DNA of 64,000 nt. Source: Maribacter arenosus. Its GTDB lineage: Bacteria; Bacteroidota; Bacteroidia; Flavobacteriales; Flavobacteriaceae. Positions within the stretch are counted from its first letter, which is position 1, and every line of letters starts with the position of its first letter. Location of the stretch: NCBI RefSeq assembly GCF_014610845.1, contig NZ_JABTCG010000002.1, forward strand, positions 1 to 64,000, written 5' to 3'. Position numbers and translations under genes: made by a program. This document shows, piece after piece, positions 1 through 444 of this stretch. The notes beneath the pieces were generated by a model. The model was given only the letters and a program-made list of their open reading frames with translations, was not told the DNA's origin and did no database searches.

Positions 1-444
1 CCCTTCGGCTGCGCTCAGGATAAACTTCTCGTCCTAGCTTTTATACAAAAATAAATCCCGATATGTAAAAATACATCGGGATAAGGGAATATTCGTTGGC
101 CTACTAGGACTCCCTTCGGCTGCGCTCAGGATAAACTTCTCGTCCTAGCTTTTATACAAAAATAAATCCCGATATGTAAAAATACATCGGGATAAGGGAA
201 TATTCGTTGGCCTACTAGGACTCCCTTCGGCTGCGCTCAGGATAAACTTCTCGTCCTAGCTTTTATACAAAAATAAATCCCGATATGTAAAAATACATCG
301 GGATAAGGGAATATTCGTTGGCCTACTAGGACTCCCTTCGGCTTCGCTCAGGATAAACTTCTCGTCCTAGCTTTTACGCAAAAATAAATCCCGATACGTA
401 AAAGAACATCGGGATTAGGGAATATTCGTTGGCCTACTAGGACT
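1..444. repeat. Four tandem 111-bp repeats carrying the tRNA-Gln 3' end
   Basis: Four head-to-tail units begin at 1, 112, 223 and 334, each exactly 111 bp. Units 1-3 look identical; unit 4, next to the tRNA gene, differs at several bases. Every unit holds a CCTTCGGCT(G/T)CGCTCAGG segment, a hairpin (ATCCCGAT paired with ATCGGGAT), and ends with TGGCCTACTAGGACT, the last 15 bases of the adjacent tRNA-Gln read on the other strand. Unit 4 runs into the real tRNA. The array therefore multiplies the tRNA 3' end and its terminator. It may continue left of the window. No open reading frame is supported inside it. Confidence 0.95.
378..416 (-). terminator. Intrinsic terminator of tRNA-Gln
   Basis: Read on the minus strand just after the tRNA, AATCCCGAT and ATCGGGATT form a nine-pair stem over a 12-base loop, followed by a T-rich run (TTATTTTT). 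The same hairpin recurs in the other three tandem units, so the tRNA transcript faces up to four terminators in series. Confidence 0.75.

Follow-up and report, generated by a model that had tools for sequence, protein, structure and literature searches.

A probable array of Bacteroidota-type tRNA-linked repeats downstream of a tRNA-Gln gene in Maribacter arenosus

The array beside tRNA-Gln

The window analysed here, a stretch of 64,000 nucleotides of Maribacter arenosus DNA, opens with a tandem array at positions 1-445 (period 111, 4.0 copies, 97% matches in Tandem Repeats Finder). The array adjoins its parent gene, an intact tRNA-Gln(ttg) on the minus strand at 428-500 (ARAGORN; Rfam RF00005, 61.6 bits in L001). 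Three parts make up each unit, all on the minus strand: the 3' portion of the tRNA, starting at A58 in the T-loop, then a terminator-like hairpin, and a pseudo-T-arm module. Scored with the model R1, whose seed includes units 3 and 4, the module is found at 316-373 in the tRNA-proximal unit 4 (75.1 bits, E 1.9e-17; also in the alignment), at 205-262 in unit 3 (74.5 bits) and at 94-151 in unit 2 (74.5 bits), and the contig end truncates the module of unit 1 at 1-40 (34.4 bits for 1-31).

Within the units, the last 18 nt of tRNA-Gln are displaced as complete and exact copies at 317-334, 206-223 and 95-112, making four occurrences when the gene is counted; an earlier note on this DNA had given the repeated tail as the last 15 bases, which is too short. 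The left arm, CTAGGAC, complementary to tRNA nt 59-65, was read and aligned at 364-370, 253-259, 142-148 and 31-37, and the alignment places the inner REP-like hairpin of the module at 335-352, 224-241, 113-130 and 2-19. The earlier note had also reported a terminator hairpin in each unit, and a hairpin scan agrees: one terminator-like hairpin lies immediately 3' of tRNA-Gln (387-416) and others lie inside units at 277-304, 166-193 and 55-82. Over positions 1-700 the scan found five such hairpins, of which the array holds four, all minus-strand, against a shuffle mean of 0.6.

Units 1-3 have one and the same sequence, from which unit 4 departs at seven positions, none of which falls within the tRNA tail or the left arm. 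Hence the description of the array as four exact 111-bp units was slightly wrong; direct comparison agrees with the same note that copies 1-3 are identical and the tRNA-proximal copy different, and the segment CCTTCGGCT(G/T)CGCTCAGG that it singled out is present in the units.

The first base of the window is also the first base of contig C12, in a draft of 24 contigs, and lies inside the array. The array resumes on contig C23, at its right end; C23 overlaps the end of C12 by 28 bp and bears the downstream flank orthologous to the flank in relatives, and the outer complete unit there departs from units 1-3 at two positions. Because the array extends from C12 onto C23, it holds at least five modules (three complete on C12, one complete on C23 and one severed at the junction), a number that is a lower bound from a draft assembly.

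Architecture of the module

In the module the T-stem is re-formed by the left arm, and the T-loop TTCG is replaced by GAGAAGYYTRY together with a short hairpin. Such modules are found after many tRNAs and a tmRNA, and their arms fit each host tRNA. Among the 52 distinct units of a hand list of 53, Watson-Crick pairs between the left arm and tRNA nt 59 to 65 number 44, 39, 51, 43, 42, 28 and 24, respectively; nt 61 is nearly invariant and therefore uninformative for pairing, and from nt 66 onward pairing is at shuffle level. Since the helix, which is the T-stem plus two pairs, ends at nt 65, the unit mimics a T-arm in which TTCG has been replaced. This mimic, with a stem that fits each tRNA, was absent from the earlier note, whose overall interpretation is partly supported.

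Covariation of the closing helix was measured on three sets of units, and by the count of double-change cells the helix covaries. Double-change cells, a count that relatedness of the sequences can inflate, number 37 against 19.1 in shuffled alignments for 36 Flavobacteriaceae units, 41 against 22.4 for all 41 tRNA-linked units (the smaller alignment leaves out L100:2984, L111, L114:1359, L120:1487 and L123:1371) and 44 against 15.0 for 16 phylum-wide units, which were hand-picked by eye and partly found with R1, a model that already scores the stem; for each set, none of 500 shuffles was as high. By the pair and pair-type measures, the Flavobacteriaceae sets show no excess over shuffles (275 and 56 of 500 with 36 units; 292 and 207 of 500 with 41 units). 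The phylum set alone exceeds shuffles, for pairs only, with 10 pairs changed on both sides versus 6.8 shuffled (3/500), and the inner hairpin covaries in this set as well. Four single Bacteroidota units, when folded as RNA, showed no clear gain over shuffles (z -0.60, -1.48, 0.08 and -0.69), and the structural case thus depends on covariation.

It should be noted that left-arm pairing may be partly inherited from the tRNA's own T-stem. At positions with a tRNA 5' base that is not complementary to the right-arm base, the left-arm base matches the tRNA 5' strand in 13 cases, pairs with the right arm in 11 and does neither in 5, counts that do not favor one origin of the left arm over the other. 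The pairing may be needed in RNA or in single-stranded DNA, or may in part be a relic of the T-stem.

Copies elsewhere in the genome

The sequence CCTTCGRCTNCGCTCAGG, allowing at most one mismatch, has 12 sites in the draft genome. Eleven lie in arrays at tRNA-Gln, tRNA-Leu and tRNA-Met, and the twelfth has no tRNA within its 3-kb locus. Matches to R1 at E<1e-5 number ten in the genome, all of them at the tRNA-Gln array (on both contigs), at tRNA-Leu(tag) or at a tRNA-Asn 3' half. Partial same-strand tRNA copies of at least 12 nt accompany 9 of 34 tRNA genes versus 40 of 949 control windows (Fisher p 1.8e-5), in a search of the fetched stretch of about 1.5 kb on either side of the tRNA, with control windows taken from partly overlapping stretches. 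On the 3' side these copies begin in the T-loop (Gln, Leu-tag, Lys, Arg-acg, Ala-ggc and Ser-tga), and three lie upstream, at Met, Leu-caa and Pro. For example, tRNA-Leu(tag) and tRNA-Gln have the module in common, and at tRNA-Met the first 17 nt are repeated with the upstream flank, a similar hairpin standing at the D-loop position.

Several loci, most of them in this genome (G000), deserve description in their own right. At G000:C12:347082-350139 (L142), an ORF whose product has an Arm-DNA-bind_5 domain of the integrase type (E 4.4e-5) adjoins the tRNA-Asn 3' half, which retains one repeat unit and the beginning of another; this locus is probably the end of an integrated island. At G000:C20:178778-179008 (L050, L089), a GIY-YIG ORF (PF01541, E 5.2e-12) terminates within tRNA-Pro(tgg), upstream of which lies a pseudo-tRNA-Pro disrupted by a hairpin. 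By our count, 25 of 32 relatives (L199-L230), L212 being loosely included, continue directly into the 5' end of tRNA-Pro or pseudo-tRNA-Pro; two others are truncated by contig ends, and L226 and L228 continue into other tRNA-like sequences. The ORF looks like a tRNA-targeting homing-type element, on which a literature search of titles and abstract beginnings found no publication. A second GIY-YIG ORF, at G000:C12:261396-261587 (L062, L091), has an intact tRNA-Leu(caa) on one side and, upstream, a 5' fragment of tRNA-Leu that is followed by a CTGTCTGCCGACAGGCAG palindrome, and a third, at G000:C18:146204-146410 (L090), stands amid copies of another palindrome family, TGTCACTTCGAGTG ... TATCGAGAAG, at a locus with no Rfam match, for example to a tRNA. 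In genome G424 (L165), the end of a GIY-YIG-like ORF is apparently joined, as read by eye, to a pseudo-tRNA with a GAGAAG module in its T-loop.

Variation at the orthologous locus in the genus

The tRNA-Gln locus was located in 11 of 12 genomes of the genus, and reading the sequences by eye gives from none to at least five units. Units are present in six of the 11: our own genome, G003 (no fewer than five units, together with a run of N), G010, G007, G008 (truncated by a contig end) and G011 (a single decayed unit). A decayed left half is left in two others (G001 and G004), and no unit was seen at the orthologous locus in the remaining three (G002, G005 and G006). In a tree of the flanking gene, arrays are present on either side of the midpoint root, and hence the simplest reading is that the array was ancestral and was then lost in places. 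The element, absent or decayed at five of the 11 orthologous loci, is dispensable. The module is common to the species, whereas the terminators differ between them. The earlier note had interpreted the array as the 3' end of a tRNA, terminator included, expanded in tandem, which is correct, the unit number differing among species; it had also proposed a search of the whole genome and near relatives for the unit, and this search found modules at other tRNAs and counts that vary.

Adjacent units diverge at 5 of 378 positions in tRNA ends versus 136 of 1103 in spacer across 11 arrays whose modules were ascertained by pattern, and at 4 of 342 versus 75 of 983 (p 1.8e-6) when the Leu array is left out. 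Without the functional tRNA's own interval, the counts are 3 of 198 versus 83 of 582 with the Leu array in and 3 of 180 versus 22 of 522 with it out. As a signal of constraint, the low divergence of the tRNA ends is thus mixed, most of its force being gone once the functional tRNA interval and the Leu array are removed.

Distribution in the family and phylum

The pattern CCTGAGCGNAGYCGAAGGGAGTC (at most one mismatch), which ends in GAGTC and is thereby biased toward T-loops, was found in 46 of 397 family genomes, and its reversed control gave none among the matches listed. When one locus was taken from each of 30 of the 46 genomes, 27 of the 30 had a same-strand tRNA just upstream, for Thr, Gln, Leu, Lys, Ile, Trp or Met. 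Across the phylum, R1 matched 34 of 296 genomes at E<=1e-3, some of these matches being plain hairpins without a tRNA, and R2, a model built from Bacteroidota only, matched 26 of 395 at E<=1e-4. Applied to another phylum, R2 matched none of 297 genomes at E<=1e-3; searches of many genomes lose weak matches, and such an empty result by itself proves nothing. Two single genomes from outside Bacteroidota gave only matches of E 0.01 and E 1, with no tRNA near.

Loci outside the family have a different inner hairpin, mostly CCCG..CGGG, and keep both GAGAAGYYTRY and the T-stem rule; their modules follow tRNA-Leu, Arg, Lys, Ala, Ser and Gln as well as tmRNA (L157). A near-exact tRNA or tmRNA tail, beginning after GTTCGA upstream, was recovered at 24 of 29 selected module loci, a set made up of 15 of the 29 loci L149-L177, 13 of the 15 loci L231-L245 (in which L232 duplicates L152 and L245 is a second unit on the contig of L231) and L142. 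Left out of this set were hairpins without a tRNA (L158, L160, L161, L163, L167, L169, L172, L173 and L176), L168, where something other than a tRNA tail forms the right arm, L174, which has no neighbouring tRNA, and partial model matches without a tRNA (L170, L171 and L175). The five misses are L149, which lacks a parent in the nearest 450 nt, L162, which a contig start precedes by 66 nt, L237 (12 of 16), and L231 and L244, whose best match is the preceding unit.

Unit length across the arrays is 64-157 bp. Units lie between two same-strand tRNA genes at L107, L108 and L110 (Thr) and at L114, L115 and L122 (Ile); at L114 a tRNA-Ile unit measures no more than 64 bp. To regard the units as a series of terminators, as the earlier note had offered, suits the tRNA-Gln array but, judged from position and unit length, does not suit the whole family. 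A literature search, limited to titles and abstract beginnings and mostly outside subscription journals, found no description of such units in Bacteroidota.

Comparison with the tRNA-linked repeats of E. coli

According to PMC8144298, tRNA-linked repeats (TLRs) have been known from E. coli since 1978 and still lacked a known function in 2021. Their hallmark is a stretch of 18-19 bp that exactly repeats the end of the gene upstream, on its 3' side; a locus holds one to five of them, downstream of a tRNA or rRNA gene, and K-12 has 22 TLR genes at ten loci (PMC8144298). The paper also presents evidence for transcription, processing and binding of Hfq and CsrA for rrA/rrB/rrF, places the rrnB TLR between terminators T1 and T2 and suggests recognition of the repeat by RNase E; the word beginnings bacteroid, proteobacteria and phyla are absent from the text searched (PMC8144298).

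The present array agrees with TLRs in position, lying downstream of tRNA-Gln on the same strand, and in sequence, with an 18-nt exact tail in three complete displaced copies. The RtT model (RF00391, representing the tyrT/tyrV TLRs) found no match at E<=10 in L001, L005, L006 and L019, the units of the window included, and we therefore regard the feature as a variant of TLR and not as a member of RtT. As a positive control, this model matched four units at tyrTV, and it matched seven units at proK, the lysT operon and lysV. Rfam matches on the arrays at E<=10 consisted of four tRNAs and five matches under gathering scores.

As in the Bacteroidota units, the left arm of RtT, which reads GAAGGAT, is the complement of tRNA nt 59-65 and leads into GAGAA, and a tRNA tail stands at the 3' end; the K-12 tyrV units read GAAGGAT-GAGAAGCTT ... 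ATCCTTCCCCCACCACCA. Unlike the Bacteroidota units, RtT has a long multi-hairpin interior. More generally, the two kinds of repeat belong to different phyla, differ in their interior and differ in unit length, the Bacteroidota unit being shorter (64-157 bp against 178 bp at E. coli tyrV), and the Bacteroidota modules also follow tmRNA. When 48 K-12 tRNAs were tested, 14 displaced tails (Tyr, Arg, Lys and Pro) were found in 13 stretches, which were picked by tRNA position and contain 14 tails at five loci versus the 22 TLRs at ten loci in print, the rrnB TLR being outside the set. All 14 have a left arm within one mismatch of the complement to nt 59-65, where chance would give an estimated 0.26 or so such 7-mers per 190-nt region; the arm is exact in four, and GAGAA stands next to it in five. 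R1 gives E. coli units 5-8 bits. With R2, the three RtT units 3' of tyrV are the top matches of a 3.3-kb search (14.8 bits, E 0.006), but in a search of 69 kb their E value is no better than 0.13, and at E<=3 R2 did not find the remaining displaced tails of E. coli. The Bacteroidota and E. coli elements thus agree in architecture and motif, an agreement by which common descent is not proved.

Alternative explanations

The main rival is a selfish REP-like hairpin, that is, a palindrome that inserts in tRNA hairpin loops (the T-loop, sometimes the D-loop), with a tandem duplication regenerating the tRNA; the module would then be conserved because a mobilising enzyme reads it, and not for any cellular use. 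We regard this as rather unlikely, although several observations are in its favor. Copies occur away from tRNAs (one of the 12 sites in the genome, two of the 30 pattern loci, L109 and L113, and nine R1 loci), occupancy of the genus locus is patchy and units have been lost there, one hairpin type stands at different tRNAs inside a family, other palindromes are nested in the modules of L093, L096, L128, L132 and L133, and the version at tRNA-Met is a 5'-side one in the D-loop position. At L172 in G005, moreover, CCTGTCCTGAGCGCAGACGAAGGG is flanked by two copies of about 23 bp, by eye apparently of a gene 3' end, as if the hairpin insertion had been accompanied by tandem duplication. The inner hairpin, CCTGAGCGNAGYCGAAGG, resembles the dispersed flavobacterial palindromes and is of a kind that we would liken to REP. 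REP/RAYT elements are palindromes associated with a Y1 (RAYT) transposase. The dispersed palindromes are not tied to a tRNA tail, unlike the modules, and no transposase link was found: the two matches to the Y1 transposase domain in the genome (PF01797, E 1.1e-6; C12:475942 and 477204) lie far from the arrays. Further against a selfish hairpin, no linked enzyme was found for the modules, viral contigs contain no exact module match (0, with one pattern), and the left arm is limited to nt 59-65 and fits each tRNA, a fit that simple insertion does not explain.

It is far less probable that the units are attachment-site scars left by integrated islands crossing over in the T-loop, the att-like reading of the earlier note. 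The displaced tRNA ends do start in the T-loop, which we take to be a known crossover position of integrases, and the tRNA-Asn array adjoins the ORF with the integrase-like domain (E 4.4e-5) described above. However, units of 64-157 bp are too short for an integrase, the 111-bp units have no room for a gene and no integrase lies between the repeated tRNA ends, a conserved module takes the place of the T-loop core at many tRNAs, and the tRNA-Asn remnant starts just 5' of the anticodon, not in the T-loop. An assembly artefact or purely local slippage accident scarcely merits belief, although the window begins at a contig end within the array and arrays of relatives likewise abut a run of N or the end of a contig (L096, L126 and L100), since other genomes, including contigs of more than 1 Mb (L115, L121 and L131), carry such modules at tRNA-Gln and other tRNAs and confirm the existence of the array, its copy number being given only as at least five.

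Proposed mode of action and significance

We conclude that the feature is very probably a tandem array of Bacteroidota-type tRNA-linked repeats. That this TLR array has multiplied by tandem duplication and acts as a 3'-trailer RNA is the fuller reading that we favor, with some reserve, and a role of the module in RNA processing is put forward tentatively, by analogy. Under this proposal, unequal recombination or slippage between units would add and remove copies. In a transcript that reads past the tRNA terminator, or in that of a tRNA cluster, the 3' trailer could fold as a pseudo-T-arm whose tail equals the mature tRNA 3' end, which would make it a substrate for RNA 3'-processing enzymes, and such processing would release a small trailer RNA. 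This part of the proposal is modelled on that made for the rrnB TLR in PMC8144298.

A broader possibility, which we advance tentatively, is that TLRs are trans-phylum structured elements that sit on tRNA tails, pseudo-T-arms in which the GAGAAG loop is conserved and the closing stem is rewritten for each host tRNA; they would be either trailer RNAs that undergo processing or mobile hairpins parasitic on tRNAs. In practical terms, tRNA-linked arrays can fragment draft assemblies at tRNA genes, as contigs C12 and C23 exemplify. If the broader statement is true, Bacteroidota and Enterobacteria alike would hold one class of TLR. The presence of this architecture in Bacteroidota, with its closing stem on tRNA nt 59-65 and its conserved loop, makes what had been a peculiarity of enterobacteria accessible to comparison, with exact residues to mutate.
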